A program made the position numbers and the translations under genes. The notes under the pieces were generated by a model. The model searched no databases and was not told the DNA's origin. It worked only from the letters and a program-made list of their open reading frames with translations. Shown piece by piece: positions 6,128 to 26,765 of a DNA stretch of 64,000 bases. Source of the stretch: Bacillus sp. ISL-45 (GTDB lineage: Bacteria; Bacillota; Bacilli; Bacillales; Cytobacillaceae); assembly GCF_018613195.1 (NCBI RefSeq), contig NZ_JAGGQQ010000006.1:179100-243099 (forward strand), read 5' to 3'. How positions within the stretch are numbered: the first letter of the stretch is position 1; every line of letters starts with the position of its first letter.

Positions 6128-6415
6128 TTACACTTTTAGCAATTTGAACTTTCCCGTACCAAAAACATCTTTTACATAATCCAGTTTTGTATCAATGAAA
6201 TAAACTGAATCACCTTCATGAATCAAGATAGGAACCTCTTCAAATGTAAAAATCTGATCATTCTTTAATGGCTGCTCTTCCAGAGCAACCCGAAGCTGAG
6301 GTCCTCCTCAGCCGATTCCCATCGTCAGTCTGACATATAGCTTTTCTCCACCCTTGCTCTCTTTGAGTACTGCATGATGCAATATTTTATATGCACTTTC
6401 TGTTATTTTGAACAA
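6128..6415 (-). CDS. HesB/IscA-like selenoprotein (in-frame TGA read as Sec)
   Basis: The minus strand encodes 95 residues from a TTG start at 6415 (AGGGGAG site upstream) to TAA at 6128, interrupted by one TGA at 6308-6310, codon 36. Reading that TGA as Sec gives VRLTMGIGUGGPQLRVALEE, the conserved HesB-like block in which close homologues carry Cys. Both sides of the TGA are in one frame and keep family features (FKITESAYKIL before, HEGDSVYFID after). A HesB-like selenoprotein family of this type is known in bacteria with Sec. A stem-loop fitting a bacterial SECIS follows the TGA. The protein has no other Cys, so the Sec would be its only thiol-type ligand. Function is probably in iron-sulfur or redox chemistry. 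A pseudogene is the alternative, but selA and selD in the same window argue against it. Confidence 0.88.
6270..6310 (-). promoter_or_regulatory. Sec codon and candidate bacterial SECIS element of the HesB-like gene
   Basis: The TGA (6308-6310) is followed after 17 bases by GGTTGCTC, loop TGGAA, GAGCAGCC: an 8-bp stem with one G-U pair and G as the second loop base. The loop starts 26 bases after the TGA, inside the 16-37 base range described for bacterial SECIS elements. Confidence 0.75.
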
Positions 6416-6593
6416 TTCCTCTCCCCTTCCTTAGTCATTTTCTTTCATATCCTTTTTGTAAAAAGCGATTATCGAATTATGACAAAATAATTAACATCAT
6501 ATTGAAATTTATTCATTTACCACCATTCTTATAATATATTATCCTTAGAGGCGACATAATAAAAATGCCTCATTCTAATCTGGGGAGATTAAC

Positions 6594-7760
6594 ATGAGAA
6601 AAAAGGAGAATAAAACTTATGGATTGGCCTTGTTTGCTGGCTTAGGTGTTTTGGCATCTGTATTAACATTCCAGATGTACCATGAAGCCGAGGCAAAGGC
6701 ACCGAGAATTAAAATGCAATCTCAAAAATCTCATCTTGAAAGAAGCTTTGATGTTAGCGGCAAGAGTTTTGTAGAAACAGTGAAGCTTGGAGCTATCGGT
6801 GATATCCTGATCCACGATACAGTTTATGAAGATGCCTTTGTGAATCCAGGGTATGACTTCAAACCAATGCTCAGTAATGTCAAAAAACACTTAATAGAAC
6901 CTGATCTTTTGCTTGCGAATCAGGAAACACTTCTTGGCGGAGAAGAAATCGGTTTATCAAGTTACCCAAGTTTCAATAGCCCGGTTGAAGTTGGAGAGGC
7001 ATTGATCGATGCAGGAGTGGATATTGTATCGAATGCAAATAATCATTCCCTTGATAAATCTGAAAAGGGTGTCCTTGCATCCATAAAGAATATGGAAGCT
7101 GCAGGTCTTCCTTATGTTGGTTCGTACAAGGACGATGCAGACAAGCATGAATTGCGGATTTTAAATAAAAATGGGATATATGTTTCTTATTTGTCTTACA
7201 CCTATGGAACAAATGGCATCCCAGTCCCTTTTGGAAAGGATCACCTTGTGAACCTCATTGACCGTGAAGCAATGAAAGCGGAGATACACCGCGCCCGAAC
7301 AGAATCAGACATTGTCGTTATGAGTATCCATTGGGGAAATGAATACCAGCGTTTCCCTACCAGTGATCAAAAGGAGCTTGCCCAGTTTCTAATCAATGAA
7401 GGTGTTGACATCATCTTTGGCCATCATCCTCATGTTCTGCAGCCTATGGAGTGGCTGATGGCAACTGACGGCAGAAAGGCATTGGTCGTCTACTCTCTGG
7501 GAAATTTCCTGTCAGGACAAATGTGGGACTATAAAGATATCGGCGGTCTTGCTACTGTTGAAATAACAAAAACCATCACACCGGATGGCAATAAAGTAAT
7601 ATTGCAAAACCCTGATTTCCTTCCAACCTTCGTTTCGAGCAGCAGGCAAAGTAATTACCGAGTTGTTCCATTGCAAGAAGCCAGTCAATACGGCCTTGCT
7701 GGAGCTGAAAATAAATACCATGAGATCATGCATCATATGACTCAATTAATAAAAGAATAA
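6594..7760 (+). CDS. CapA-family (PgsA-like) metallophosphatase-fold protein
   Basis: The 388-residue protein has an N-terminal hydrophobic segment (residues 9-27), so it is membrane-anchored or secreted, then a CapA domain: GAIGDILIHD, LLANQETLLGG, GVDIVSNANNHSLDK, VVMSIHWGNEY, GVDIIFGHHPHVLQP and VYSLGNFLSG. These are the metal-binding motifs of the calcineurin-like PGA_cap family. CapA/PgsA proteins take part in poly-gamma-glutamate synthesis or export, but pgsB and pgsC are absent here, so it is an orphan member whose substrate I cannot tell. GGGGAG ribosome binding site before the ATG. Single-gene unit. Confidence 0.85.
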   Translation: MRKKENKTYGLALFAGLGVLASVLTFQMYHEAEAKAPRIKMQSQKSHLERSFDVSGKSFVETVKLGAIGDILIHDTVYEDAFVNPGYDFKPMLSNVKKHLIEPDLLLANQETLLGGEEIGLSSYPSFNSPVEVGEALIDAGVDIVSNANNHSLDKSEKGVLASIKNMEAAGLPYVGSYKDDADKHELRILNKNGIYVSYLSYTYGTNGIPVPFGKDHLVNLIDREAMKAEIHRARTESDIVVMSIHWGNEYQRFPTSDQKELAQFLINEGVDIIFGHHPHVLQPMEWLMATDGRKALVVYSLGNFLSGQMWDYKDIGGLATVEITKTITPDGNKVILQNPDFLPTFVSSSRQSNYRVVPLQEASQYGLAGAENKYHEIMHHMTQLIKE

Positions 7761-7770
7761 TTGTGAGAGA

Positions 7771-7792
7771 GCCCGGTCCATGAAGACCGGGC
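7771..7792 (+). terminator. Hairpin after the CapA-like gene
   Basis: Perfect 8-bp inverted repeat GCCCGGTC / GACCGGGC 11 bases past the stop codon. The following tract is only weakly T-rich. Confidence 0.6.
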
Positions 7793-7838
7793 ATTGCTTA
7801 TGTTATAATCATTCTATCTGGTATGGAAGGAGAACAAT

Positions 7839-8132
7839 ATGAAAATTACAATTAATAATGATGCAGCAGCATGGTATGAAAATGAAATGGACCTTTCAGC
7901 CGGAAGCTATTTGCGATTTTTTGTCCGGTACGGCGGTTTCAGTTCAATCCAGAAAGGTTTTTCATTAGGTGTCTCCAAGGAAGAACCGGATCACATTGGC
8001 GTAAAGACAGAAAAAAATGGGATCACCTATTATATTGAAGAAAAAGATATTTGGTATTTTGACGGCCATGATATGATCGTGGAACTACACCCGGTTGGCC
8101 ATGAACCTGACTTCAAATTCGAAAAGAAATAA
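7839..8132 (+). CDS. yneR: HesB/IscA-fold protein YneR
   Basis: The 97-residue product is nearly collinear with B. subtilis YneR (for example RFFVRYGG, QKGFSLGVSKEEPDH, DIWYFDGHD). YneR is placed in the HesB/IscA fold, but this protein contains no Cys at all, so it cannot coordinate an iron-sulfur cluster the way IscA does. Function is unknown. GGAAGGAGA site precedes the ATG. It is convergent with yneQ and shares a terminator. The genes plsY, yneR, yneQ, yneP, tlp and sspN keep the B. subtilis neighbourhood. Confidence 0.9.
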   Translation: MKITINNDAAAWYENEMDLSAGSYLRFFVRYGGFSSIQKGFSLGVSKEEPDHIGVKTEKNGITYYIEEKDIWYFDGHDMIVELHPVGHEPDFKFEKK

Positions 8133-8151
8133 GGCAGACGCGCAGTCTGCC
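8133..8151. terminator. Shared terminator of yneR and yneQ
   Basis: Inverted repeat GGCAGAC / GTCTGCC that exactly fills the 19 bases between the two convergent stop codons, with T-rich sequence following on the plus strand. Confidence 0.75.
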
Positions 8152-8454
8152 TTATTTTCTGTCATTTAGTAGAGGGTTTTTAATTCCCTCCTGTTCAAGG
8201 ATTTCAGCTTGCTTCCCACCTAATAAATCAAAATGAGGGTAGGCAGGCTTTCTCTTGTCAATCCACTCTGGCCGCAAACCATACTTTCTCCCCCACTCAG
8301 CTAATCTGTCAAGATCGCTGCATCCTACCTTCGTAACCGTTGAACAGTCCGGGAAGCGGTCATCAATCCAGTAATGGGTCAGGAAGGCGAGCTCTCCTCT
8401 TTCAACCTTATTCTTCCATTCCTTAAGCTCGTGGCGCTTTATCCCGAAAGCCAA
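8152..8454 (-). CDS. yneQ: YneQ-like protein of unknown function
   Basis: The 100-residue protein matches the YneQ family by its N-terminus (AFGIKRHELKEWKNKV), FLTHYWIDDRFPDC and the GLRPEWIDKRKPAYPHFDLL block. No function is known. The start is a TTG that directly follows the TGA of yneP (TGATTG), with AAAGGAG inside the end of yneP, so the two genes are very likely translationally coupled. It is the last gene of the yneP-yneQ pair. Confidence 0.88.
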   Translation of the reverse strand: MAFGIKRHELKEWKNKVERGELAFLTHYWIDDRFPDCSTVTKVGCSDLDRLAEWGRKYGLRPEWIDKRKPAYPHFDLLGGKQAEILEQEGIKNPLLNDRK

Positions 8455-8898
8455 TCAGACCTGCTCCTTTACATCTTCAGGCTTTTTCACCGCCTGTAAA
8501 TACGCTTCATGCCAGTCAGGATAGCTCCTTTTTAGCGAGATTGGCCGGAAGCTATCTTTTTTAACACAGACATGTTTTGAACTGCCTGTCAATGCCAGCT
8601 CCCCTTCACCATTGAAGATTTCATATTTATAGACAGAGCGGATCCCATCATACTCCTCCACCCAGGTCTTAATTGTAGCAGTATCTCCATATCTCAATGG
8701 TTTTTTATAGGAAGCCTGTATATCAAGTACAGGTGAAATGACTCCACCCTTCTCCATCTCTGCATAATTAAAGCCGAGCTCTTTGATCAATTGTGTTCTG
8801 CCCAGCTCCATCCACACCAGATAATTAGCGTGATACACGACCCCCATCTGGTCTGTTTCCGCATAACGAACCTCAATCTCCCTTGTAGAAATTATCAT
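8455..8898 (-). CDS. yneP: Acyl-CoA thioesterase YneP (hot-dog fold, 4HBT type)
   Basis: The 147-residue protein carries the 4-hydroxybenzoyl-CoA thioesterase signature VRYAETDQMGVVYHANYLVWMELGR, with the catalytic Asp in ETDQMG and the HANY loop. It should hydrolyse an acyl-CoA or acyl-ACP in the cytoplasm. Residues GVISPVLDIQASYKKPLRYGD complete the hot-dog core. An AGGGG site precedes the ATG at 8898. It starts 29 bases after the AAA+ ATPase gene and leads into yneQ, so all three may be co-transcribed. Confidence 0.92.
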   Translation of the reverse strand: MIISTREIEVRYAETDQMGVVYHANYLVWMELGRTQLIKELGFNYAEMEKGGVISPVLDIQASYKKPLRYGDTATIKTWVEEYDGIRSVYKYEIFNGEGELALTGSSKHVCVKKDSFRPISLKRSYPDWHEAYLQAVKKPEDVKEQV

Positions 8899-8927
8899 TG
8901 GTATTCCCCTTTATTTTTCAAGAATTT

Positions 8928-11249
8928 TTATCCTATAAGTTTTTTTAAAGCCGCTTCAAAATCCTGTTTTTCCAGGTATAAAACATCCTCATCCAAATCC
9001 TCAAAATTATCGTGGTCAATCAATCGATATGCCTGGGATTGAATCGCTTCATCCACTAAGTTTGTGGCGAATCGCCCATTCCCTTTTATTTCTGTTTCTG
9101 AAAGTTGCTCAGACAAAAATGCTTCTGCTTCTGTACCCATTCTATATTGATACTTGCCAGCGTAGTTCCTGATGATGAGCAGCAAATCACCCACATTATA
9201 GTCAGGAAAGTGGAAAAACTTCTTGAACCGTGACCTGAGGCCAGGATTGCTTTCCAGCAGCATATCCATTTCAGCAGGATAGCCAGCAAGAATCACGACG
9301 AGATTTTCATTATGCCTTGTCATTTCATCGACAAGAGTATCAATAACTTCCTTGCCAAAATCACCCGAGCTTTGGCCAAGCAAAGAGTATGCCTCATCAA
9401 TAAATAATACTCCTCCTAGTGCCTCACGGATTTTTTTCTTTGTCTTGATGGCTGTCTGTCCAACATAACCAGCGACAAAATCCGCTCGGCTGCTCACGAT
9501 AAGGTGCCCCCTCTTCAACATGCCGCACTCCTTCAAAAGTTCTGCGTAAATCTTAGCTACAGTCGTTTTTCCTGTTCCCGGATTTCCGGTGAATACAGAG
9601 TGAAGCTGAATCGGCACAGCAGGCAGTCCTTTTTCCTTTCGCAGCTGCTGCATCTTTACGAAGGAGATCAGGGAGGTAACCTCTGCTTTTACAGTGTCCA
9701 ATCCTACGAGTGCATTCAGTCTGTCGAGTGGTTTTTCAGTTGAAATATTTGCTGTAGCTTCAAAATCCTCTTTTTCCAATAAGGTATAGGTCGAAAAGTC
9801 ATGTTCTTCACTTTGCCTTGATCCCTTTTTAAAAATCGCTTCCAACACAAGGTTGCGAACCGTCCTGGCATTTCCAAAGGTATCGTCGACTCTTTCCTTT
9901 TCGATCCGATCCGTAAGCTCAAGCTTTGCCGCTTCTGTCATGGCATAATCGTTATCCTGTGCAGCTTGCTCAGCGATTTGTAATAGCTCACTATTCGAAT
10001 AATCAGGAAGATGAATTAAATTTGATTGAGGGAAACGTGATCTTAAACCTGGATTCGCATCAAGAAATTGTCTCATCTCCTCTGGATAACCAGCAAGAAT
10101 CACGGCGAATTTACCGCCATACTCTTTCCCGGTCATTAAGGAAACGAGAGTATCAATAGCAGTTTGGCCATAATCATTCCCCGTCTGGCCTTCCCGCTTA
10201 AGACTGTAAGCCTCATCAATAAAAAGTACCCCACCCAGGGCTTGCTCGATGATCTTCCTGACATTTTCTTCTGTTTGTCCAACATAAGCCCCTACAAGCT
10301 GGGAACGGTCCGCCTCGATTATTTCTTCTCGCGGCAGTACTCCAAGCTGGTGATAAATTTTGGCGAGCAATCTTGCCAATGAAGTTTTCCCTGTTCCTGG
10401 ATTTCCGGTCAGGACCATATTCAAGCTTTGATCATCCTTCGTTTGCAGTCCAAGTTCTTTCCGTTTTTGCTGATATTTCAAGAACCGGTAAAAATCATTC
10501 ACTCTCTCCTTGACCGATTCAAGTCCTATCATTTTGTGAAGTTCAGCCAAAGGATCAATGTCAGATAGTTTTTGGCTTTCCGATTCCTCCGCAAATTCTT
10601 CTTCCCAGTTCAGCTTGATTCCTTCAAGGGTTTGCAGTCTTTTCTGCATTTCTTCAAAGTGGACAGCTGTGTGAAAAACGCCGGTAACCGACTCTTCATA
10701 TAACTCAGTTGCTTTCAGGAGAGCTGCAGTCTCTTCTATTGCCTTTTCCAGCAAATTGGTCAGCCTGTTGAATTTAGCTTCAGCTTCAGAGCCTGTTTCA
10801 AGCTGCTGGGCTTGAAGGTCATCCAGCTCTTCTTCAGCATGTGACAGGAATTGCTGCGAAATATTTATGTACTGCTCTGCAGTTTTCTTTTTTAACGCCC
10901 GATTATCAGTTTCCCTGATCCGAGGGTACACTAGCTGGCCAAATAGGTTACCCTTATTTTTCCATTGATTACCTGACAGCAGGGATTTTGCTTTCTTGTT
11001 TGCTGTATCGTGTTCAATCGCCGTCCTTAACCACTCAAGGGCGAGAGAATCATACCCGTTTCGCTGGGCTCTCGATTGCGCAGCCAAAGTCAGGGTTTGA
11101 GACAGTTGCTTATGGTTTTCCATTTTTGACAGTTTCCTGATCGCGGTGATCAAACTGGCTTCATCCTGAATAAAACCTTTTGTATTTATCTCCTCTTCCC
11201 ATAGCTTGATCTGTTCATCCATAGGAATTTGCTTTTTTTGTCGATCCAT
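8928..11249 (-). CDS. Tandem CbxX/CfxQ-type AAA+ ATPase (SpoVK-like)
   Basis: The 773-residue protein has a helical N-terminal region (1 to about 230) and two AAA+ modules of the CbbX/SpoVK class. Module one has Walker A GNPGTGKTS, Walker B GGVLFIDEAYSL and AGYPEEMRQFL...NPGLRSRF; module two repeats GNPGTGKTT, GGVLFIDEAYSLL and AGYPAEMDMLLESNPGLRSRF. Both retain the arginine-bearing PGLRSRF segment, so both should be active. Such proteins remodel other proteins; single-module relatives are SpoVK and rubisco activase CbbX, and EccA of type VII secretion is distantly similar. Its place between tlp and yneP, next to spore genes, suggests a sporulation or stress role, which is inference. B. subtilis has no gene at this position to my knowledge. 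Confidence 0.88.
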   Translation of the reverse strand: MDRQKKQIPMDEQIKLWEEEINTKGFIQDEASLITAIRKLSKMENHKQLSQTLTLAAQSRAQRNGYDSLALEWLRTAIEHDTANKKAKSLLSGNQWKNKGNLFGQLVYPRIRETDNRALKKKTAEQYINISQQFLSHAEEELDDLQAQQLETGSEAEAKFNRLTNLLEKAIEETAALLKATELYEESVTGVFHTAVHFEEMQKRLQTLEGIKLNWEEEFAEESESQKLSDIDPLAELHKMIGLESVKERVNDFYRFLKYQQKRKELGLQTKDDQSLNMVLTGNPGTGKTSLARLLAKIYHQLGVLPREEIIEADRSQLVGAYVGQTEENVRKIIEQALGGVLFIDEAYSLKREGQTGNDYGQTAIDTLVSLMTGKEYGGKFAVILAGYPEEMRQFLDANPGLRSRFPQSNLIHLPDYSNSELLQIAEQAAQDNDYAMTEAAKLELTDRIEKERVDDTFGNARTVRNLVLEAIFKKGSRQSEEHDFSTYTLLEKEDFEATANISTEKPLDRLNALVGLDTVKAEVTSLISFVKMQQLRKEKGLPAVPIQLHSVFTGNPGTGKTTVAKIYAELLKECGMLKRGHLIVSSRADFVAGYVGQTAIKTKKKIREALGGVLFIDEAYSLLGQSSGDFGKEVIDTLVDEMTRHNENLVVILAGYPAEMDMLLESNPGLRSRFKKFFHFPDYNVGDLLLIIRNYAGKYQYRMGTEAEAFLSEQLSETEIKGNGRFATNLVDEAIQSQAYRLIDHDNFEDLDEDVLYLEKQDFEAALKKLIG

Positions 11250-11332
11250 CTAAATCACTTCTTTATCTAAAGAGTTTTCGTTGTTTTAGTTTACATTCCG
11301 TATATTATCACATTTTCAACCAAACGGAAAAA

Positions 11333-11352
11333 GACCCGCCTGTTGACGGGTC
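11333..11352 (-). terminator. Terminator of tlp
   Basis: GACCCG / CGGGTC hairpin followed on the minus strand by TTTTTCC, 8 bases past the tlp stop. Confidence 0.7.
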
Positions 11353-11360
11353 CTTTGGAT

Positions 11361-11582
11361 TTACTGCTGGTTATGCGCTTCATCCTTGATTTCAGCCCTG
11401 AAGGCATCGATACTCTCTCTGCGGCGCTCATTCTTTGTCTTGATTCTTTGCTGGTCTTCAGGACTGGAGTTGACCATTGCAGCTTCCGCATCTTCCATAT
11501 TCTCAATCGTATGATGGATCATAGACTGCAGCTTTTCTACATTATCGCTTCGATCATCTGGCTTTGGTGTATTGTTTGCCAT
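11361..11582 (-). CDS. tlp: Small acid-soluble spore protein Tlp
   Basis: The 73-residue protein starting MANNTPKPDDRSDNVEKLQ and continuing MIHHTIENMEDAEAAM is a typical thioredoxin-like SASP Tlp. It is made in the forespore and packed into the spore core. I chose the ATG at 11582 because it has an AAGGAGG site upstream; a longer in-frame extension to 11624 lacks family similarity. It follows sspN in the same direction, as in B. subtilis, but sspN has its own terminator. Confidence 0.95.
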   Translation of the reverse strand: MANNTPKPDDRSDNVEKLQSMIHHTIENMEDAEAAMVNSSPEDQQRIKTKNERRRESIDAFRAEIKDEAHNQQ

Positions 11583-11682
11583 GGTAATGTACCTCCTTCT
11601 AAAAAGTACACCAATAGTATGCAACTAGTCATATCAATTATTAGCGGAAAACAGTGGATATCTTTTATTGGCAAAAATAAAG

Positions 11683-11704
11683 GCCCGCCAAATCATTGGC
11701 AGGC
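11683..11704 (-). terminator. Terminator of sspN
   Basis: Inverted repeat GCCTGCCAAT / ATTTGGCGGGC on the minus strand followed by CTTTATTTTT. Confidence 0.75.
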
Positions 11705-11716
11705 ATATTCACTCGG

Positions 11717-11860
11717 TTATTCACCTTTAGTTTGTATTACCTGGGCATGTTCACCCGACTTATCATTCATCTTCTTCCCTTTATTGCCACTGAATCCACG
11801 CGGCTGAGTGCCAAGGTGGCTTGGAACATAATGCTTGCTGTCCCTTTTAGGATTGCTCAT
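11717..11860 (-). CDS. sspN: Small acid-soluble spore protein SspN
   Basis: This 47-residue protein (MSNPKRDSKHYVPSHLGTQP, then GNKGKKMNDKSGE) matches the SspN family along its length. It is a minor SASP of the spore core. The start ATG at 11860 has a GGAGG site. It lies just upstream of tlp, the conserved arrangement. The gene is too short for many gene finders. Confidence 0.93.
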   Translation of the reverse strand: MSNPKRDSKHYVPSHLGTQPRGFSGNKGKKMNDKSGEHAQVIQTKGE

Positions 11861-11927
11861 GTATATCCCTCCTCTAGAATAAGTTTCTCCTAAAGAAGAG
11901 GTATTCATAAATGGTAATGTATGATAT

Positions 11928-12059
11928 TTACTCAGCCTTGCCCAAGTGTTTTTGCTCCAATTTAGCCTCGATCTTCTCGAGTGCATCACGGTCATTCAGA
12001 AGTTGGCGTTTATTTTCCATAACAAGCTCTTGAAAAGAACGCTTTCTAGGTTTTCTCAT
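11928..12059 (-). CDS. FbpB-like small basic protein (Fur-regulated basic protein family)
   Basis: The 43-residue protein MRKPRKRSFQELVMENKRQL..ALEKIEAKLEQKH has the invariant RKPRKxSFxELVxENKxxLLxD start and ERIEExLEQRH-like end of the Fur-regulated basic proteins. In B. subtilis FbpB works with the small RNA FsrA in the iron-sparing response. I see no convincing Fur box upstream (the stretch near 12080-12105 is only a weak match), so iron control is inferred from the family. It is a single small gene between sspN and the ResA-like gene. Confidence 0.8.
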   Translation of the reverse strand: MRKPRKRSFQELVMENKRQLLNDRDALEKIEAKLEQKHLGKAE

Positions 12060-12202
12060 CGTGTTCACCATCCTTTGTCATCATTGTAACAGTTATTATG
12101 TCCGGAAACGGTTTCAATTATTACAACTTTTTGAAAATTTAATCGTATTTTATTCATACCCACTAATTTCGTGTATTGCCCATGCAATTTTTACCATAAA
12201 AA

Positions 12203-12227
12203 AACACCAGTAGACTGTACTGGTGTT
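12203..12227 (-). terminator. Terminator of the ResA-like gene
   Basis: Perfect 9-bp stem ACACCAGTA / TACTGGTGT followed by seven T on the minus strand; it overlaps the end of the stop codon of the gene. Confidence 0.88.
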
Positions 12228-12747
12228 ACTTCATGAGTTCCTGCATTTGATCGTATGTCATCGAACCGATGTGTTTTTTTAAAATCAATCCCTGCTCATC
12301 GATTATAAATGTTGTAGGAATGGAAATGATCGAGTATGTTTGCTGTGTGGATCCATCATGATCAAGCAGTATAGGAAAGGTTAAATCATTATCCTTCACA
12401 AATGATTGTACATTGTTCTGGGGATCCAGATTGACGGCCAGAATTTCAACATCCTTCGACTTTTCTTTGTAAAATCGCTCCATCGCCGGCATTTCTTCTT
12501 TACAGGGCGGACACCAAGTAGCCCAAAAGTTCAGCATCACCTTTTTACCTCTGTAATCTTTCAAGCTTACCTCTTCACCGGCAAGGTTTTTCAATTTGAA
12601 ATTTGGAGCTACCATCCCGGCATCAATTCCTGTTGCTGCTTTTGATGCTTCAATTGCTTGTGGTTCCTCGATTGTATAAAACTGCTGGAAAATGGCAAAC
12701 AAAACCAGGCCAGCAAGAATACCAGCCGCAATCGCTTTTTTGACCAT
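12226..12747 (-). CDS. ResA/StoA-like membrane-tethered thiol-disulfide oxidoreductase
   Basis: The protein of 173 residues has an N-terminal membrane anchor (about residues 5-22) and a thioredoxin-like AhpC/TSA domain with the redox motif FWATWCPPCKEEMP. Such proteins act outside the membrane and reduce disulfides in apocytochrome c (ResA) or in spore peptidoglycan enzymes (StoA). Position next to sspN and tlp corresponds to B. subtilis yneN, a ResA-like gene. I chose the ATG at 12747, behind AGGGGG and directly before the anchor; the frame stays open upstream to 12942 but that part enters the tandem repeat array and is not coding. Confidence 0.9.
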   Translation of the reverse strand: MVKKAIAAGILAGLVLFAIFQQFYTIEEPQAIEASKAATGIDAGMVAPNFKLKNLAGEEVSLKDYRGKKVMLNFWATWCPPCKEEMPAMERFYKEKSKDVEILAVNLDPQNNVQSFVKDNDLTFPILLDHDGSTQQTYSIISIPTTFIIDEQGLILKKHIGSMTYDQMQELMK

Positions 12748-12855
12748 AGGAAAACCCCCTTCGGTTAATTTACAAGTAGGATATCCCAAGTATACAAAGA
12801 TAATGAAAGTGGAAAAGTGAGAAAATTTGAGGATTATGTGAATTTTAATGAAGAA

Positions 12856-13164
12856 CTGCACTCGCTCTGTTTTGTCCGAACCTCGGTCATCTTCGGACAA
12901 AATCAACCTGCACTCGCTCTGTTTTGTCCGAACCTGGGGCATCTTCGGACAAGATCACCTGCCACTCACGGAGTTTTGTCTGAACCTGGGTCCTCTTCAG
13001 ACAAACTCAACCTGCACTCGCTCTGTTTTGTCTGAACCTAGGTCATCTTCGGACAAAATCAACCTGCACTCGCTCTGTTTTGTCCGAACCTGGGTCATCT
13101 TCGGACAAAATCAATCGACACACACGCTATTGTCTTAGAACTCTGCCCCATCTTAATCCAAACT
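12856..13164. repeat. Tandem array A: five 52-bp units plus a decayed sixth, each with a hairpin
   Basis: TGTC cores occur at 12873, 12925, 12977, 13029 and 13081, an exact 52-base period, with a decayed unit near 13131. Each unit holds the palindrome TTTTGTCCGAA / TTCGGACAAAA around an 11-base loop, then CTGCACTCGCTCTG. In the third unit both arms change together (GTCTGAA with TTCAGAC), so pairing is kept. The array lies between the ResA-like gene and the mtnA terminator. Open frames across it are repeat artefacts. Confidence 0.9.
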
Positions 13165-13181
13165 ATCCATGCGCAAAAAAA

Positions 13182-13202
13182 GCCAGGGAGTGCATCCCTG
13201 GC
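13182..13202 (-). terminator. Terminator of mtnA
   Basis: Perfect stem GCCAGGGA / TCCCTGGC followed by seven T on the minus strand, about 12 bases past the mtnA stop. Confidence 0.9.
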
Positions 13203-13214
13203 ATACAACCATGC

Positions 13215-18675: not shown

Positions 18676-18713
18676 AATGGCGTGTCAAAACTGATGTCAG
18701 TTTACACGCCATT
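18676..18713 (-). terminator. Long terminator hairpin of the 18776 gene
   Basis: AATGGCGTGT / ACACGCCATT with an inner AAACTGA / TCAGTTT extension, followed on the minus strand by T-rich sequence. Confidence 0.85.
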
Positions 18714-18775
18714 CTTATTGTCATTTATAAGTTATGCACCCAAGATCAGAAGGTTAAAAAAATCCCAAGGCGGTT

Positions 18776-19324
18776 TTAATTTGCTCTTTTGAGAACATGT
18801 GATGATGCGTTTGTATGAACGTTTGGTATGAACTTTGAAGCTTCCTGCAACAGATGGATTTGTGCCGCTTGCGCCTGGTCAACTGTCCCCATGCCATACA
18901 TCTTCAAGGACTTCTCAAGTACAAGCATAGATTCATGACCGTTTACATAGTAGAGACTCTCACCAGCACGAGGGTAATAGGATTCAAGGGGTTTTATATT
19001 GGAGATGACATGATACTGTGCTTCTCCGTTTTGAGAGTACCCCGCGATCACAGCTTCAAAGGGCTGTCCATCTACCATTAGCGTGGGATTATTGATCAAT
19101 AATTGAATTGATTCAGCCATTTTCTTAAGACTGAACCCTTGCATAACAAGAGTTTCAGCAGCGCTGATGGCCATCATGGCATATTCTTCATCACCAGAGT
19201 AAGCAATTACGGCTGTATTTGGTATTAACTCTTTAAATCTGATATCATCGAGTTTCTGATGAATCCCATAATCCGTTACCAATGAAATAAAATCCTCTCT
19301 TGCTACTATTGATACAAGGCCCAT
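18776..19324 (-). CDS. Conserved-looking protein of unknown function
   Basis: The 182-residue soluble protein starts MGLVSIVAREDFISLVTDYG at the ATG at 19324, which has AAGGAG 8 bases upstream (a GTG nine bases earlier is in frame but less well placed). I do not recognise a named family. The order of a short N-terminal strand, AVIAYSGDEEYAM, and a long helix (AAETLVMQGFSLKKMAESIQ) recalls proteasome-like Ntn-hydrolase folds, but no nucleophile Thr or Ser is exposed at position 1 or 2, so this is only a structural hint. It follows tandem array B and has its own terminator. Confidence 0.7.
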   Translation of the reverse strand: MGLVSIVAREDFISLVTDYGIHQKLDDIRFKELIPNTAVIAYSGDEEYAMMAISAAETLVMQGFSLKKMAESIQLLINNPTLMVDGQPFEAVIAGYSQNGEAQYHVISNIKPLESYYPRAGESLYYVNGHESMLVLEKSLKMYGMGTVDQAQAAQIHLLQEASKFIPNVHTNASSHVLKRAN

Positions 19325-19550
19325 AAAAACCACTCCTTATATTCCATCATCTACCTTAAACATACCTCTTTGGGAGTAAATATCAATAGGAGAAGTTGTC
19401 GACTCATCAGAAGTTTTCGCGGATTTTGTAAGATTAGTGAATGAGGAGAATTTTACAAGCTTAAAGTAGTCTAGGAAGGTAAATTTAGTCATCATTTTAC
19501 TCTATCAATAGCTTTAACAGGTCCAAGAAACCAACATCGACAACGGGTGA

Positions 19551-19880
19551 AAAGCTGTCATGAATAACCCATTATCTTGACAGGTTCAGTTCCTTCAGAT
19601 GAAAAGCTGTCATGAATTACCCATTATCTTGACAGCTTTAGCCCAACAGGCAAAAAGCTGTCATGATTTACCCATTTTCTTGACAACTTTTGCTCTATCA
19701 GGTAAAAAGCTGTCATGATTTACCCATTATCTTGACAGGTTCACCCCATCCAGATGAAAAGCTGTCATGAATAACCCATTATCTTGACAGCTTTAGCCCC
19801 ATCAGGCAAAAAGCTGTCATGAATTACCCATTATCTTGACAGCTTTAGCCCCATCAGGCAAAAAGCTGTCATGAATAAGC
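19551..19880. repeat. Tandem array B: seven 51-52-bp units each with a hairpin
   Basis: TGTC cores at 19556, 19608, 19659, 19711, 19763, 19815 and 19867 give a 52-base period (51 once). Each unit has AAAGCTGTCA / TGACAGCTTT around the conserved loop region TGAATAACCCATTATC; the linker is TAGCCCCATCAGGCAA or a variant. The last unit is truncated. It fills the space between the acnA terminator and the 18776 gene. Sequence differs from array A, but period and spacing of the TGTC..GACA arms (19 bases) are the same. Confidence 0.9.
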
Positions 19881-19944
19881 CGTGATTTTTTTCAGGTCTT
19901 ATACCGAATTAAAGGCAATGATTTTGTGCACTACAATACACAAA

Positions 19945-19978
19945 AACCCCCTGGTCCGCTTAAGGATTCAGGGGGGTT
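19945..19978 (-). terminator. Terminator of acnA
   Basis: AACCCCCTG / CAGGGGGGTT stem with TTTTTG following on the minus strand, 12 bases past the acnA stop. Confidence 0.85.
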
Positions 19979-19990
19979 ATTTTTATTATT

Positions 19991-22699
19991 TTACGCTTTT
20001 AATTTATCACGAAGAACCATTTGCAGGATCCCGCCGTGACGGTAGTAGTCGATTTCGACTTCTGAATCGAAACGTACAAGAGCTTCGAAAGTCTTCTTGT
20101 TGCCGTTTTCGTCAGTTGCTGTCACAGAGATGATGTCGCGTGGGCGAACCTTTTCATCAATCTGCACATCGAATGATTCTCTTCCTGTCAGGCCAAGAGT
20201 TTCTGCGTTTTCACCAGCTTTGAATTGAAGTGGCAGTACGCCCATCAATACAAGGTTAGAACGGTGGATACGCTCGAAGCTTTCAGCGATAACAGTTTTG
20301 ATTCCTAATAGGTTAGTACCTTTTGCAGCCCAGTCACGGGATGATCCCATACCGTAATCTTTTCCTGCGATAACCATTAGACCAGTGCCTTGCTCTTTGT
20401 ACTTCATGCAAGCATCAAAGATGGACATTATTTCGTTCGTTGGCCAGTAAGTCGTGAAGCCGCCTTCTGTGCCAGGAGCGATTTGGTTCTTGATACGGAT
20501 GTTTGCGAATGTACCACGCATCATGACTTCGTGGTTTCCACGGCGTGAACCGTATGAGTTGAAGTCACGAGGCTCTACACCCTTTTCACGCAGGTATTTT
20601 CCAGCTGGTGTATCTTTTCCTATCGCACCTGCAGGAGAAATATGGTCAGTTGTAACAGAGTCACCGAACTTGCCGACAATACGAAGGCTGTTCAATGGAG
20701 CAACTTCCCCAGCCTCTGGAGTCAAGCCTTCAAAGAATGGCGGGTTTGCAATATAAGTTGAGTCATCATCAAATGTGTAAAGTGGATCGCTGTTTGTTTG
20801 GATCTCGTTCCACTTCTCATTGTCAGTGAATACTGTTTCATACTCCCTGCGGAATAGTTCTGGAGTAACAACGCGGTGAACGACTTCGTTCACTTCTGCA
20901 GTTGATGGCCAGATATCCTTGAAGAATACATCGTTGCCATTCTTGTCTTTACCGATAGGATCATTCTGAAGGTCGATGTCCACAGTACCTGCAAGAGCAT
21001 ATGCAACAACCAATGGCGGTGAAGCCAGGTAGTTAGCTTTTACGAGCGGGTGGATACGGCCTTCAAAGTTACGGTTACCAGAAAGGACAGAAGTAACTAG
21101 AAGGTCGCTTTCAGCAACAGACTTTTCAATTTCCGGCTTCAATGGACCAGAGTTACCGATACATGTAGTACATCCATACCCAACAAGGTTGAACCCTAGT
21201 GTTTCAAGGTAAGGAAGCAATTCAGAATCACGAAGGTATCCAGTAACAACCTTTGATCCTGGTGCCAATGAAGTCTTGACGAACTTAGGAACTTCCATTC
21301 CAAGCTCAACAGCTTTCTTGGCAACAAGGCCTGCACCTACAAGTACGTATGGGTTCGATGTATTTGTACAGCTAGTGATCGCAGCGATGGCGATTGCACC
21401 AGTCTTCATTGTCGTTTGATCACCATTAGCGAACTCAACAACAGCTTCTTTATCGATTTCTTTCTTGTCTAAGCCAAATCCCTGGTTTCCTGCAGGAGCA
21501 GTCAATGCTTCCTTGAAGGACTTTTGCATATCTGATAGCGGGATCAAGTCCTGTGGACGCTTAGGGCCGGAAAGGTTAGCTTCGATTTCTGAAAGGTTGA
21601 TTTCTACAACATCAGTATAAACTGGCTCCAATGCAGGATCGAAGAATAGTCCGTTCTCCTTGCAGTATGCCTCAACCACTTTAATGTGATCCTCCGTGCG
21701 TCCAGTTAATCGCATGTAATCCAATGCTTCTCCGTCAACCGGGAAGAAACCGCAAGTTGCGCCGTATTCTGGTGCCATGTTGGCAACAGTCGCACGGTCA
21801 GCAAGTGGAAGTGTGACAACGCCAGGTCCGAAGAACTCGACGAATTTACCAACAACGCCTTTGCTGCGAAGAACCTGAGTCACTTTTAATGCAAGGTCAG
21901 TTGCAGTAGCGCCGTTCGGCATATCTCCTACTAATTTAACACCTACTACTTCTGGAACCGGGAAGTATGAAGGCTGGCCAAGCATTCCAGCTTCTGCTTC
22001 GATACCGCCTACGCCCCATCCAAGAACACCAATACCGTTGATCATAGTAGTATGAGAGTCAGTACCTACCAATGAATCAGGGAAAGTTTCAAATTCGCCA
22101 TCTGCATTTTCAACAGCATGGACAACGCTTGCAAGGTACTCAAGGTTAACCTGGTGCACGATACCTGTTGCTGGCGGAACAGCACGGTAGTTATCGAAAG
22201 CTTTCTGTGCCCAGCTCAAGAACTGGTAACGTTCAGCATTACGTTCGAATTCAAGCTCCATGTTTACATTAAGCGCGTCTGGAGTTCCGTATTTATCAAC
22301 CTGTACAGAGTGGTCGATTACAAGATCAACCGGCTTCTCTGGATTGATTTTTTGTGGGTCTCCACCCATGTCAGCCATTGCTTTTCTTAGGGAAGCAAGG
22401 TCAACAACTGCAGGTACACCAGTGAAGTCCTGAAGAATGACACGTGAAGGCTTGAAAGGCACATCCACTTCTTTCACTTCGCTAGTTCCCCATTTTGCTA
22501 GATTTTCAACATGCTCTTTAGTGATTACAAAGCCATCATGCTGGCGAAGCACGGACTCAAGCAATACCTTAACAGAGTAAGGCAGTTTTGATACATTGCC
22601 GATTCCAGCCTTTTCTAGTGCTGCCAGGCTATAGTAATGATAGCGTTTCCCGTCAACTTCAAATGAACTGCGGGCGTTAAAAACATCTTGGTTTGACAT
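19991..22699 (-). CDS. acnA: Aconitate hydratase (aconitase, CitB type)
   Basis: This 902-residue enzyme interconverts citrate and isocitrate in the TCA cycle and, in Bacillus, also binds RNA when its cluster is lost. The three cluster ligands are seen in [10 protein letters not shown] and [11 protein letters not shown]; the substrate-binding [15 protein letters not shown] and [13 protein letters not shown] blocks are also present. Length is as in AcnA/CitB of Bacillus. GGGGG ribosome binding site before the ATG. It is monocistronic. A well-formed promoter and a CcpC-type operator lie upstream. sspO diverges from it, as in B. subtilis. Confidence 0.98.
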
Positions 22700-22805
22700 A
22701 TGTTTACCCCCTTCTTCTACGTAAACATCATAAACTAAATAAAAGTAATTGTCGAAAAGTTTGAATCTTGTATCCCATCCTAACTTTTCTCACAATTTCA
22801 TATTA

Positions 22806-22834
22806 ATATAACCTTGTGTATAAGTAAATAACAA
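22806..22834 (-). promoter_or_regulatory. Predicted sigma-A promoter of acnA
   Basis: On the minus strand TTGTTA (22829-22834), 17-base spacer, TTATAT (22806-22811). The position leaves a leader of about 100 bases before the ATG at 22699. Confidence 0.55.
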
Positions 22835-22851
22835 GAAAGTTATTGCGGTTG

Positions 22852-22866
22852 ATAAGTTTTTCTTAT
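22852..22866 (-). promoter_or_regulatory. CcpC-type operator upstream of acnA
   Basis: ATAA-N7-TTAT dyad (ATAAGTTTTTCTTAT) centred near -60 relative to the predicted start, with a further ATAAG half-site between -35 and -10 (22821-22825). This is the layout by which the citrate-responsive repressor CcpC controls citB in B. subtilis. Confidence 0.6.
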
Positions 22867-23031
22867 TATAAAAATCATATACATGATTAAAATAATCTTA
22901 ATGGGATTTTATCAAAGAAGAATTCCTGGTCTATTTTACTCCGCTTGAATCGAAAACTATTTTACAAAAATGAAAAGGTCGGATTGTGCAAGGCTGAATG
23001 GGAAAAAATATGTCAGATGGAGGTGAATTTT

Positions 23032-23181
23032 ATGGTGAAAAGAAAAGCAAATCATGTTTTTCCAGGTGCTAATGCTGCAAAAGCTCAAGGCAACGGTGCA
23101 GGGTTCAACGAAGAAATGGCTAACGAACCATTATCTGAACTGGAAAAACAAAATAATAAGAAACGAAAAAAGAATCAATAA
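23032..23181 (+). CDS. sspO: Small acid-soluble spore protein SspO (CotK)
   Basis: The 49-residue protein [33 protein letters not shown] matches SspO of Bacillus at both ends. It is a minor SASP of the spore core. I chose the ATG at 23032, which follows GGAGGTG at the right distance and matches the family start; the frame extends upstream but without similarity. In B. subtilis sspO and sspP form one operon next to citB; here a minus-strand gene (23218-23475) separates them. Confidence 0.93.
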
Positions 23182-23188
23182 AATCACA

Positions 23189-23212
23189 AAAGCGGAAGGC
23201 CTCTTCCGCTTT
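23189..23212. terminator. Terminator between sspO and the 23218 gene
   Basis: AAAGCGGAAG / CTTCCGCTTT stem with a GCCT loop and T/A flanks on both sides; serves convergent genes. Confidence 0.85.
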
Positions 23213-23217
23213 TACTA

Positions 23218-23475
23218 TTACTCCATGTTTACTTCTTTTACAATGCTTTGCAAGTCCTGCTGGAACCTTTCAAGCTGCGCACGTTGATGTTCAGATGCGT
23301 TTTCAAGAGCATTTTCGATTTGCTGGAATGCTTCATTCACTTCATTTTTAAGATGCTTTAGCTGGTGACCATAGCTTGCGCTGTCCCGGACAATTTCCGA
23401 GTACAGCCCTTGTGCGTCTTCGAAGCCTTGCTGTGCTGCCTGAAAGGCTTGCTGTTTATCTTTATTATAAGGCAT
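23218..23475 (-). CDS. Small helical protein of unknown function (85 aa)
   Basis: The protein MPYNKDKQQAFQAAQQGFED..FQQDLQSIVKEVNME is Gln/Glu-rich and almost fully helical, with heptad-like spacing that suggests a coiled coil. I start it at the ATG at 23475, which has AGGAGG upstream; a longer frame to 23589 lacks a site. No named family is recognised. It sits between the spore genes sspO and sspP on the opposite strand, so a spore or forespore role is possible but only by position. Confidence 0.7.
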   Translation of the reverse strand: MPYNKDKQQAFQAAQQGFEDAQGLYSEIVRDSASYGHQLKHLKNEVNEAFQQIENALENASEHQRAQLERFQQDLQSIVKEVNME

Positions 23476-23588
23476 GTGTGATTCCTCCTGATGTAATAAA
23501 TCTATACCGTTAAATTGCTCATTTACAAGTAATTTATTCAGTATAAATTCGCTTGAAAATCCAATCCTAAAGTCAGGAGGGATGAGCA

Positions 23589-23732
23589 ATGAACAAAAAT
23601 GATTCCAAGGATATGCGCAAAAATGCTCCTAAGGGTGATCAAGACAGCCAGCCTGCTCCATTAAGCGGATCAAAAAAGGTTAAAAACCGAAACCATACTC
23701 GTCAAAAACATAACTCACATCACGACATGTAA
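23589..23732 (+). CDS. sspP: Small acid-soluble spore protein SspP (CotL)
   Basis: The 47-residue protein [34 protein letters not shown] is nearly identical in layout to B. subtilis SspP. A minor SASP made in the forespore. AGGAGGG precedes the ATG by 8 bases. It is followed by a shared terminator with selA, which is convergent. The gene is too short for many gene finders. Confidence 0.94.
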
Positions 23733-23765
23733 ATGCTTAAGCCGCTTCTGCCGAACAAACCAAAA

Positions 23766-23806
23766 GAAAGTAAGGTCTGCCAGTAAAAATGGCAGGCCTT
23801 ACTTTC
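23766..23806. terminator. Terminator between sspP and selA
   Basis: GAAAGTAAGG.CTGCCA / TGGCAG.CCTTACTTTC, a 16-bp stem with one bulge around GTAAAAA. Its far arm touches the selA stop codon. Confidence 0.85.
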
Positions 23807-25212
23807 TAAATTAGTTTAAACGCATCCAAAAGAAATCTTTCTTCTTTAACTGTAACCGTCCGAAGATCGACATTAACCTCTTCTTTTTGTATCCGTACAA
23901 CGATTGCCGGTGAATATTCCGTCCTTAGCTTTCTGGCAATATGTTCAGCGCTGACCTCCGGATGGCTGACCGAGACTAGATACGTGGGCAGCTGGACATC
24001 AGGCATTGTCCCGCCTCCGACCTGGCTAGTTCCTTCAGTCACAACAGCTTTTAGCTCACCCACAAAAGAATTAATTTCCTGGGCAAAGCGCTCCGATCTT
24101 CCTTTAAGTTCATCTGCGGGAGCAAGTAAGTCTCTTAGTGTCGGAATATTGAATAACCCCTGCTCTCCCCTTAGATAATCCATTAAAGTACCCTCTAGTG
24201 CCGCTAGTGTCATTTTATCGACTCGAACTACTCTCGCCAGCTGGTGTTTCTTTAACTTATCAATCAGTTCTTTTTTCCCGGCGATAATACCAGCCTGTGG
24301 TCCTCCGAGCAGTTTATCTCCGCTGAAGGATACAATGTCGGCCCCCATTTTAAGCACTTCACCGACAACGGGTTCTTCCCCAATCCCATGGCGAGTGAAA
24401 TCATAAAGAACACCGCTTCCAAGATCTTCGTAAAAAATAACCTGATTGTGCTTACCAGATAGTTGGGCCAATTCATTTGTTTCAACTGTTTTTGAAAATC
24501 CATATATTTTGAAATTGCTCGTATGAACCTTCAGGATCATCGCAGTATTGTCTGTAATCGCATGCTCATAGTCATATAAATGTGTTTTGTTGGTTGTCCC
24601 AACTTCCACTAAATGAGCTCCGCTTTCTTCCATAATAGAAGAGATCCGGAATGAGCCCCCGATTTCAACAAGCTGCCCACGTGAAACAATGACATCTTTG
24701 TTTTTGGCGAGTGCACTCATGATTAAATAAACAGCTGCTGCGTTATTATTGACGACCATCGCTGCTTCAGCGCCGGTGACTTGTTTAACAAGGTTTTCAA
24801 CATGGCTGTGCCTGGATCCACGCTCACCTTCCTTAAGCTTATACTCAAGGTTGGAATAATTCCTCGCGGTTTCTACCACATGCTTCACTGCACTCTCACT
24901 CAACCGTGCCCTTCCAAGATTCGTATGTAAAATGGTCCCTGTTGCGTTAATGACCCTTTTAAGTGTATAGTCAAATCTTTCTGTTGCTGATGAATCGATC
25001 AAATTAAAAAGCTCGTCAATAAACAGATTGGTGCCAGGCTCTGGACCACTCCATTTATCGCTGACAATTTCTTTCCTGATTTTATTTAAAACATCTTTGA
25101 TGATGTCTGTGAAACGTTCTCCGTCTGCATCATGCTTCTTGATTAAATCAAGAAACCTGGAATCCTTCTGTAATTCATGGACAGCAGGAAGCTGCCTTAA
25201 TAATTGTTTCAA
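23806..25212 (-). CDS. selA: L-seryl-tRNA(Sec) selenium transferase SelA
   Basis: SelA is the PLP enzyme that turns seryl-tRNA(Sec) into selenocysteyl-tRNA(Sec) using selenophosphate from SelD. The 468-residue protein shows the family blocks: RVINATGTILHTNLGRA, SNLEYKLKEGERGSRHSHVE, VNNNAAAVYLIMSALA and the PLP-lysine motif SFSGDKLLGGPQAG. Length is normal. The start is a TTG at 25212 with GGGGGAG 8 bases upstream. It lies next to the SelW-like selenoprotein gene and selD. A SelA confirms that this organism makes Sec, which validates the in-frame TGA codons in this window. Confidence 0.97.
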   Translation of the reverse strand: MKQLLRQLPAVHELQKDSRFLDLIKKHDADGERFTDIIKDVLNKIRKEIVSDKWSGPEPGTNLFIDELFNLIDSSATERFDYTLKRVINATGTILHTNLGRARLSESAVKHVVETARNYSNLEYKLKEGERGSRHSHVENLVKQVTGAEAAMVVNNNAAAVYLIMSALAKNKDVIVSRGQLVEIGGSFRISSIMEESGAHLVEVGTTNKTHLYDYEHAITDNTAMILKVHTSNFKIYGFSKTVETNELAQLSGKHNQVIFYEDLGSGVLYDFTRHGIGEEPVVGEVLKMGADIVSFSGDKLLGGPQAGIIAGKKELIDKLKKHQLARVVRVDKMTLAALEGTLMDYLRGEQGLFNIPTLRDLLAPADELKGRSERFAQEINSFVGELKAVVTEGTSQVGGGTMPDVQLPTYLVSVSHPEVSAEHIARKLRTEYSPAIVVRIQKEEVNVDLRTVTVKEERFLLDAFKLI

Positions 25213-25311
25213 AATCTATCTCCCCCACCACGGTTGTGCATTCATTAATTATATCATTATTGCCCATATAAAAGTTTTTTCAAAACGGTGAACTTGAATG
25301 GTATGAAAAAA

Positions 25312-25333
25312 GCCCGGCTAAAAAAGCCAGGGC
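25312..25333 (-). terminator. Terminator of the SelW-like gene
   Basis: GCCCTGGCT / AGCCGGGC with one bulge, followed by six T on the minus strand. It separates the SelW-like gene from selA. Confidence 0.8.
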
Positions 25334-25334
25334 A

Positions 25335-25577
25335 TTAATTCATTGCTTCCATTTTTTTGATGATTTCGTCTGAATCAGGAAAAACACCTGTATCAAGTTT
25401 TGAATAAATTGTCTGGCCATTTATAGTAACTTCAAAAGCTCCCTTTGAAGCCGGAATCAACTCCATCTTTTCAATTCGGCTTCGAAAATGAGTGAATAAC
25501 TCTTCCGCGAAACTCGCGGCTTTTGGTGCGTAGTTTCATTGCATGCAAAATTGGATGGTTACCTGAAAATTCTCCAT
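25335..25577 (-). CDS. SelW/Rdx-family selenoprotein with a CxxU motif
   Basis: The minus strand encodes 80 residues from ATG at 25577 (AGGGGG site) to TAA at 25335, with one TGA at 25536-25538, codon 14. Read as Sec it gives VTIQFCMQUNYAPKAASFAE, the C-x-x-U redox motif and following segment of the SelT/SelW/SelH (Rdx) thioredoxin-like family. The rest (ELIPASKGAFEVTINGQTIYSK, DTGVFPDSDEIIKKM) is the family's beta-strand and helix, including the usual GxFEV and GxFPD. The role is probably glutathione- or bacillithiol-independent redox chemistry; the exact substrate is unknown. It lies between selA and selD and diverges from selD. Missed by frame-based gene calling because of the TGA. Confidence 0.93.
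25505..25538 (-). promoter_or_regulatory. Sec codon and candidate bacterial SECIS of the SelW-like gene
   Basis: TGA then 16 bases, then CCGCGA-GTT-TCGCGG: a perfect 6-bp GC-rich stem with a GTT loop starting 23 bases after the TGA. Confidence 0.75.
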
Positions 25578-25712
25578 TATTGAATCCCCCTGTATAACTA
25601 TATATTATATTTATTGTCATTTTAGTGTAAAGTCAATGTCAGTGCAAATAATAATAGCTTAAGGATGATTTTAAAAACAAGAAAGAGTATACTTTTTGTG
25701 GAGGTGATCAGG

Positions 25713-26765
25713 TTGAGTGAACACGAGAAAATCCGTTTGACTTCACTATCAACAAAGGCTGGCTGAGGATGCAAAATCAGTCCCGAGGACTTGACGCAAG
25801 TTTTGCGTCTATTGCCAGAACAGGATTATGTTCCTGAATTGCTTGTCGGACATGAGACTTCCGATGATGCAGGTGTATATAAACTTACAGAAGATATCGC
25901 CCTGATTCAAACAATAGATTACTTCACCCCTGTAGTGGATGATCCATATATGTTTGGACAGATTGCTGCCGCCAATGCACTAAGCGATGTCTACGCAATG
26001 GGCGGCGAACCTAAAACAGTCCTTAATATGGTGGGATATCCTATCAAAAAGCTTGGTCCGGATATGCTCGCTGAAATATTAAGAGGTGCCAGTGACAAAG
26101 TGAAGGAAGCTGGAGCAGTGACGGTTGGCGGTCATTCAATTGATGACCAGGAACCTAAATTCGGCTTATCTGTAACTGGGCTTGCCCACCCTGGTGCCAT
26201 CTGGAAAAATATCGGTGCAAAACCAGGTGATGTGCTTGTTCTTTCAAAACCAATCGGTGTTGGAATCCTGACGACAGGAATCAAGCGCAACGCAGTAACT
26301 GCTGAACAAGAGCGGGAAGTGACCGAAACTATGGCTTTACTGAACAAGTCTGCTGCAGCTGCGCTGAAAGACTTTACCCCCCACGCCGTAACCGACGTCA
26401 CAGGGTTCGGCCTGCTTGGGCATGGTAGCGAGATTGCACGTGGCAGCAATGTCAGCTTTGAGATTTCTTTATCGGATGTACCTGTATTAGATGGTACATA
26501 TGAGTTGGCTGCAAGAGGAGTCGTGCCTGGAGGCTCAAAATCCAACCATAAATGGCTGGATGGCGATGTGGAGTATGAAGATATTTCTACAGAAGAGCAA
26601 TTAGTACTCTGTGATGCAATAACTTCTGGAGGACTACTTGTTGCGCTTCCTGAAAACGAAGCTGGTAAGTACGTGGAAGCCTTGAAGAATAAAGGGCTTG
26701 TTCATGCAGCTATAGTCGGGAAAGTCATAGAAAAGCAGGATAAACTAATCTATGTGAAAAGGTGA
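25713..26765 (+). CDS. selD: Selenide, water dikinase SelD, itself a selenoprotein
   Basis: SelD makes selenophosphate from selenide and ATP. The true start is the TTG at 25713, 8 bases after GGAGG; reading through the TGA at 25764-25766 (codon 18) gives IRLTSLSTKAGUGCKISPED. The Sec replaces the catalytic Cys of E. coli SelD (position 17) and is followed by the essential Lys (GCK). Gene finders that stop at TGA begin only at 25791 and lose the active site. The remaining 350-residue protein has GDDAGVY-like ATP sites, VGGHSIDD and TDVTGFGLLGHG. It diverges from the SelW-like gene. Its terminator overlaps the stop codon. Confidence 0.97.
25764..25809 (+). promoter_or_regulatory. Sec codon and candidate bacterial SECIS of selD
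   Basis: TGA at 25764-25766; GACGCAA (25793-25799), loop GTT, TTGCGTC (25803-25809): a perfect 7-bp stem. The loop begins 34 bases past the TGA with G first, within the accepted range. Confidence 0.75.

Follow-up and report, generated by a model that had tools for sequence, protein, structure and literature searches.

The selenocysteine genes of the window

The stretch of DNA analysed here (64,000 nucleotides; hereafter called the window) covers positions 179100-243099 of contig C25 in the 4.6-Mb draft genome (G000) of Bacillus sp. ISL-45. It carries three genes interrupted by an in-frame TGA codon, which are hesB-like, selW-like and selD, together with selA, the gene for selenocysteine (Sec) synthase. 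The nearest named SelA sequences belong to Bacillus sp. ISL-41 (96%), ISL-37 and ISL-55 (88% each), Mesobacillus selenatarsenatis (87%) and M. boroniphilus (81%). Because the ISL strains and then Mesobacillus are the closest, the host is, judged by SelA, a Mesobacillus-like relative of Bacillus. The features are as follows.

6128-6415, minus strand: putative hesB-like selenoprotein gene, 95 amino acids, TTG start, Sec codon 36, motif GIGUGGP
6270-6290, minus strand: SECIS-type (selenocysteine insertion sequence) hairpin of the hesB-like gene, core CTCTGGAnGAG
6308-6310, minus strand: in-frame TGA of the hesB-like gene; TGA in 39/39 genes, own copy included
23806-25212, minus strand: selA, Sec synthase, 468 amino acids; 560.7 bits on TIGR00474 (cut-off 267.9)
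25335-25577, minus strand: putative selW-like (Rdx family) selenoprotein gene, 80 amino acids, CxxU at codons 11-14 (CMQU)
25505-25519, minus strand: SECIS-type hairpin of the selW-like gene, apical GUU
25536-25538, minus strand: in-frame TGA of the selW-like gene, codon 14; TGA in 69/69 genes
25713-26765, plus strand: selD, selenophosphate synthetase, 350 amino acids, TTG start, Sec codon 18 (AGUGCK)
25764-25766, plus strand: in-frame TGA of selD, codon 18; TGA in 75/75 genes
25779-25791 and 25793-25809, plus strand: two tandem hairpins behind the selD TGA, the second with a GUU apex

When the TGA is read as Sec (U), all three frames are open from start to stop, and a stretch resembling a ribosome-binding site is visible by eye on the 5′ side of each start. 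The real stop codon of selD is also TGA. In alignments with solved homologues, the U of the HesB-like protein aligns with a Cys of the IscA-like structure 1nwb, that of the SelW-like protein with the second Cys of the CxxC in the SelW-like structures 2fa8 and 2obk, and that of SelD with a Cys of the SelD structure 3u0o, which we take to be of the Escherichia coli type. SelD scores 401.1 bits on TIGR00476 (cut-off 125) and has the Cys/Sec of the active site; in the features compared, it does not differ from the SelD proteins with an active-site Sec. The SelW-like protein, with its CxxU, belongs to the SelW-like/Rdx family by both models (71.2 bits on TIGR02174, cut-off 34.2; 83.4 bits on PF10262, cut-off 22.6). 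The HesB-like protein reaches 26.6 bits on Pfam PF01521 (Fe-S_biosyn), against a cut-off of 26.3.

Mechanical frame calling (at least 60 amino acids) misses hesB and selW and shortens selD to 25791-26765, so that the active site is lost. A scan of the window for read-through genes returned 80 candidates, seven of them outside large open reading frames, and on inspection by eye hesB and selW are the only two of these seven that we consider real; selD is absent from the seven, as it sits inside its own large open reading frame.

Conservation of the TGA codons

The loci of relatives were collected with selA as bait, and the best 80 of 257 qualifying stretches were kept, in which 69 have a SelW-like match and 75 a SelD match. 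A hesB search added 30 loci, one of which (L097) is the studied genome's own gene. The codon was checked by tblastn over the 80 selA loci, the 30 hesB loci and eight formate dehydrogenase loci. TGA is kept in every hesB (38/38 relatives when the own copy is set aside), every selW and every selD. That hesB search covered 101 genomes, 68 of which have a match at E ≤ 0.001. Among the 64 rows at E ≤ 2.8e-12, 63 (own gene included) contain one TGA, and the sole TGA-free row is a fragment that begins after the Sec position. Rows with weaker matches include both TGA and Cys forms, and are most likely other HesB/IscA genes. SelW has a match at E ≤ 0.001 in 166 of 397 sampled genomes of the order. Among the matches listed (to E 1.1e-23; weaker ones exist, one at 5.8e-4), a TGA is present throughout, without a single Cys form, and in four of them a TAA also occurs towards the end of the alignment.

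That the TGA codons are sequencing errors or pseudogene marks is a general possibility, for which the hesB score, scarcely above the Pfam cut-off, might also speak, but the same TGA in 183/183 genes (one being the own hesB) from many assemblies, with protein conserved on both sides of it and hairpins conserved, refutes this idea.

Hairpins behind the TGA codons

The RNAalifold consensus has a stem behind the TGA in hesB, selW and selD. All pairs of the stem form in 38/38 unique hesB and 65/66 unique selW sequences, and in selD in 69/71 for the first hairpin and 66/71 for the second. In 400 synonymous resamplings, the mean number of fully paired sequences is 2.4 for hesB, 4.3 for selW, and 15.0 and 0.3 for the first and second selD hairpins, with maxima of 10, 11 and, for the second selD hairpin, 2. 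The fairer test is a sliding RNAalifold window. In each gene, it gives the lowest consensus energy at the TGA (hesB -2.21, selW -9.19, selD -13.4 kcal/mol), and the six best listed windows per gene start between four codons before the TGA and five after it. No window of selA, used as the control, falls below -0.82 kcal/mol. In addition, the codons at +1 to +17 are significantly conserved in selW (p = 0.0004) and selD (p = 7e-7). The scored columns with a single codon are confined to the hairpins or lie beside them (for example, Leu CTG in 39/39, Ser AGT in 61/61, Asp GAC in 73/73).

The hairpins also share sequence. The core CTCTGGAnGAG recurs in 31 of 32 loci of the HesB paralogue type, the exception (L195) being a wrongly picked site, and is preceded by G or T in 38/39 window-type hesB genes. 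A GUU apex is common to the selW and selD hairpins, and GGTCT is common to the three formate dehydrogenases described below. Behind the Sec codon of selD there are two conserved tandem hairpins, not one; the second is the likelier SECIS, because it has the GUU apex in common with the selW hairpin. In all three genes, a candidate SECIS hairpin lies directly behind the UGA.

Several points weigh against this assignment and against Sec insertion in general. The stems were picked from the same alignments on which they were counted, and the resampling ignores relatedness, which inflates the contrast with the resampled sequences. The hesB consensus fold is weak, yet it is the best within its gene, and codon conservation behind the hesB TGA is not significant over +1 to +17 (p = 0.10). 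The minimum free energy of the whole region is only modestly below that of synonymous shuffles (mean z -0.93 for hesB, -0.60 for selW and -1.03 for selD), and z is below -1 in just 14/37 hesB, 14/64 selW and 32/67 selD sequences. An Rfam scan of the window gave no match at the gathering score. Moreover, Sec insertion at the TGA codons is itself inferred from the sequence.

The sequence-only reading of this DNA had proposed that hesB, selW and selD each have one in-frame TGA at the Cys position of their homologues with a SECIS-like hairpin behind it, that selA and selD are both encoded here, and that standard frame calling loses or truncates the three genes. The alignments with solved homologues, the conserved stems with their best folds at the TGA, the two family scores and the frame calls bear this out.

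The Sec machinery of the genome

Does the genome encode the rest of a Sec-decoding system? The sequence-only reading had left selB and a tRNA-Sec with anticodon TCA to be sought elsewhere in the genome, and would have fallen with their absence; both are present. The selB gene lies at C25:89133-90992 (365.6 bits, cut-off 242.25, which is passed by 2/14 control genomes), and its product carries the winged-helix domains SelB-wing_2 and SelB-wing_3. The tRNA-Sec gene lies at C19:3261-3353 (58.3 bits, cut-off 47), and ARAGORN calls it tRNA-SeC(tca), 97 nt; the cut-off alone is lenient, as 5/14 controls pass it. A single SelD in the genome is above the cut-off (passed by 2/14 controls), and it is the TGA form. 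The genome also has a selU/mnmH gene (312.3 bits, cut-off 219.75).

As in the E. coli-type Sec-decoding trait, the host has SelA, SelB, SelC and SelD, an in-frame UGA and a hairpin directly downstream. In contrast to that trait, its selB and tRNA-Sec are located away from selA and selD, and its SelD is Sec-encoded and the only one above the cut-off. A selB and tRNA-Sec apart from selA and selD, and a Sec-encoded SelD, are both known in other bacteria. In many relatives, selD and selW-selA are adjacent and divergent, while the 10-kb flanks of the 80 selA loci contain selB in six cases and tRNA-Sec in three.

Reading of TGA as Trp or Cys throughout the genome (a changed code), or plain read-through, would need no Sec, and since the codon aligns with Cys, an inserted Cys would also give a plausible protein. 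This has next to no chance of being correct: TGA also serves as a true stop at the end of selD, the Sec apparatus is present, and the conserved hairpins are specific to the TGA sites. We are nearly certain, from machinery, codon conservation and hairpins that can all be read from the DNA, that the host has a complete bacterial Sec-decoding system of the ordinary kind, shared with many relatives.

Sec synthesis: SelD would produce selenophosphate, and SelA would turn Ser-tRNA(Sec) into Sec-tRNA(Sec). Because the sole SelD above the cut-off is the TGA form, Sec synthesis appears to depend on a Sec protein, SelD itself. SelD may also supply 2-selenouridine, since a selU/mnmH gene is present.

Sec delivery: SelB would bring Sec-tRNA(Sec) to the ribosome at a UGA with a SECIS hairpin immediately behind it. 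The SelW and HesB proteins completed in this manner presumably have redox roles.

The tRNA-Sec locus has a further feature. A tyrosine integrase gene (PF00589) stands directly behind tRNA-Sec (C19:3261-4680; L001, L138), the homology to the genus-mate G018 ends at the 3′ end of tRNA-Sec, and a mobile element with Prim-Pol and Replic_Relax genes seems to sit in the tRNA gene. Across 23 tRNA-Sec loci, own included, the integrase is 92% identical in G003 and 43% in G062, and its matches at the tRNA-Sec of G005 and G061 are weak. The T stem of tRNA-Sec in 16 genus members is CTGGG/CCCAG in 12 and GTGGG/CCCAC in four, and the changes compensate. We considered the mobile element as donor of a new 3′ half of tRNA-Sec; this is not supported, because genus-mates that lack any integrase-like match within 1,400 bases downstream have the identical T stem.

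Further Sec genes in the genome

Outside the window, three genes for the formate dehydrogenase alpha subunit contain a TGA (C27:263729, C3:273527 and C17:97756), at a position that, by eye, is Cys in the TGA-free paralogues L127 and L130. A search with TIGR01911, the model of the HesB-like selenoproteins, found three more HesB-like TGA genes with the same hairpin core (C11:88069, C13:3650 and C1:33568), and a Cys-type HesB-like gene at C11:22917; all of them are under the cut-off of that family. The SelW gene is single in the genome. By sequence, the host would thus have at least nine Sec genes: selD, selW, three formate dehydrogenases and four HesB-like genes. Nine is a minimum, as the count covers only the SelD, SelW, formate dehydrogenase and HesB-like families. 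The genus-mate G017 has at least four TGA hesB genes.

The HesB-like protein of the window

The window HesB is far from the described family. It scores 22.6 bits on TIGR01911, against a cut-off of 66.35 that is reached in none of the 101 related genomes, better-matching paralogues included, and it is below the cut-off of each NCBIfam model that it matched (37 members scanned; the scores are those of the first member). Because frame calling loses the gene and the protein scores under the NCBIfam cut-offs, it is likely missed in annotation. It is 30% identical to the paralogue L164 over 79 positions. Nevertheless, its AlphaFold model (from 37 sequences) has a mean predicted local distance difference test score (pLDDT) of 94.1, and the best Foldseek matches are IscA and SufA chains (query template-modelling (TM) score 0.71-0.78), with DsrR also matched.

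The A-type iron-sulfur (Fe-S) carriers IscA, SufA and ErpA bind their cluster through a first Cys and a C-terminal CxC. The window HesB has the HesB/IscA fold and lacks the three-ligand set: in 40 aligned rows (39 loci, with the window gene twice), position 36 is the only one at which Cys/Sec is conserved, and every other Cys is found in one or two rows. In contrast, there is a Cys among the last six residues of the paralogue-type Sec-HesB proteins at 31/31 readable loci. The protein shares with the HesB-like selenoproteins of TIGR01911 the UGGP motif and the fold, and the hairpin core is common with its paralogues, whereas it differs in its score and in the absence of a C-terminal Cys. The motif of these selenoproteins is given as UxGP in a 2026 review (PMC13188914). 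We regard the window HesB as a divergent subfamily, in which no Cys/Sec position other than that of the Sec is conserved.

How might such a protein work? It may be a true A-type Fe-S carrier with Sec as a ligand, although the odds are against it. The confident fold model, its IscA and SufA matches, and the alignment of Sec with the Cys of 1nwb argue for a carrier. The lack of a second conserved Cys, unlike the C-terminal Cys of the other Sec-HesB proteins, and the presence of a separate Cys-type carrier gene (L165) in the genome argue against it. A still more tentative proposal is a Sec-dependent redox switch or regulator, which would use the HesB fold for a non-cluster job as YneR/PdhI of B. 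subtilis does, an inhibitor of pyruvate dehydrogenase according to PMC10090944. This proposal is consistent with the lone Sec without another conserved Cys, and with a weak fold match to YneR (9a4q_B, E 2.3e-3, query TM 0.58). However, the matched YneR structure is a modelled complex, the IscA and SufA matches are stronger, there is no known target, and a sequence search of PDB chains (E 0.001) gave 1nwb only, in a set where the presence of YneR is unconfirmed. In our judgement, a redox or regulatory role is about as likely as cluster carriage.

The selW-selA spacer and tandem arrays

One further hairpin lies between selW and selA.

25313-25331, minus strand: intrinsic-terminator-like hairpin

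A hairpin with a T run occurs somewhere in this spacer in 55 of 69 relatives, ten of which have it farther than 50 nt away; by our count, it is no more than 50 nt from the selW stop in 45/69. Attenuation, in which the selW UGA would control selA through the spacer terminator, was dropped, because the spacers are often about 500-700 nt long (in many of the 69 relatives) and the hairpin is near the selW stop in those 45. Most likely, the hairpin simply ends the selW transcript.

The window also contains tandem arrays at 12856-13114 and 19546-19876, which repeat every 52-53 bp and comprise several unit sequences unrelated to one another; many units have palindromic arms. Such arrays are also found in the relatives' loci L017, L020-L022, L024, L027, L036, L050, L052, L070 and L073, and are alike at corresponding places in close relatives. 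The window and the 80 loci, which are not independent, have 34 arrays of at least 2.8 copies, with periods of 20-21 (12 arrays), 42 (5), 52-53 (14), 58 (1), 104 (1) and 207 bp (1), nearly all near multiples of the 10.5-bp helical turn.

Spread of Sec among the bacilli

The tRNA-Sec cut-off is passed by 180 of the 397 genomes of the order, which is an upper bound for Sec users, because 5/14 controls pass it, as compared to 2/14 for selB and 2/14 for selD. Some match at E ≤ 0.001 is found in 397/397, mostly, we presume, to other tRNAs. The SelW count of 166/397 points the same way, and in a set of relatives 22/25 genomes pass the tRNA-Sec cut-off; B. subtilis 168 is not one of the control genomes that do. 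The initial statement that most bacilli lack the Sec machinery hence holds only narrowly in the order, and the rarity attached to it was overstated; likewise, the three selenoproteins claimed as a minimum are real genes, but that count was low.

In the literature, a 2006 survey lists for Bacillales three selenoprotein families and three selenoproteins (PMC1794560 Table 2), the 2026 review states that aerobic bacteria rarely retain selenoproteins (PMC13188914), and Table 3 of PMC5029168 lists SelW-like selenoproteins in 35 organisms and 90 HesB-like ones in 86 organisms, as compared to the three further Sec-HesB paralogues of this host alone. A search that mostly covered papers outside subscription turned up no published figure for the number of Sec-HesB copies in a Bacillus genome. 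The families are already known, while the breadth of their occurrence in bacilli and the presence of four HesB genes exceed the published accounts found, and the reach of Sec in bacilli looks larger than the reviews suggest.

At least nine Sec genes together with a sole SelD that itself requires Sec would make the bootstrapping question testable. As a speculation that we hold to be improbable but worth stating, the clade has expanded its HesB-fold selenoproteins (four here), and the lone-Sec branch acts as a redox or electrophile switch, perhaps on an enzyme of central metabolism, and not as an Fe-S carrier. If true, a Sec-HesB switch would help to explain why the Sec system is retained in many bacilli, which are often thought of as aerobes.

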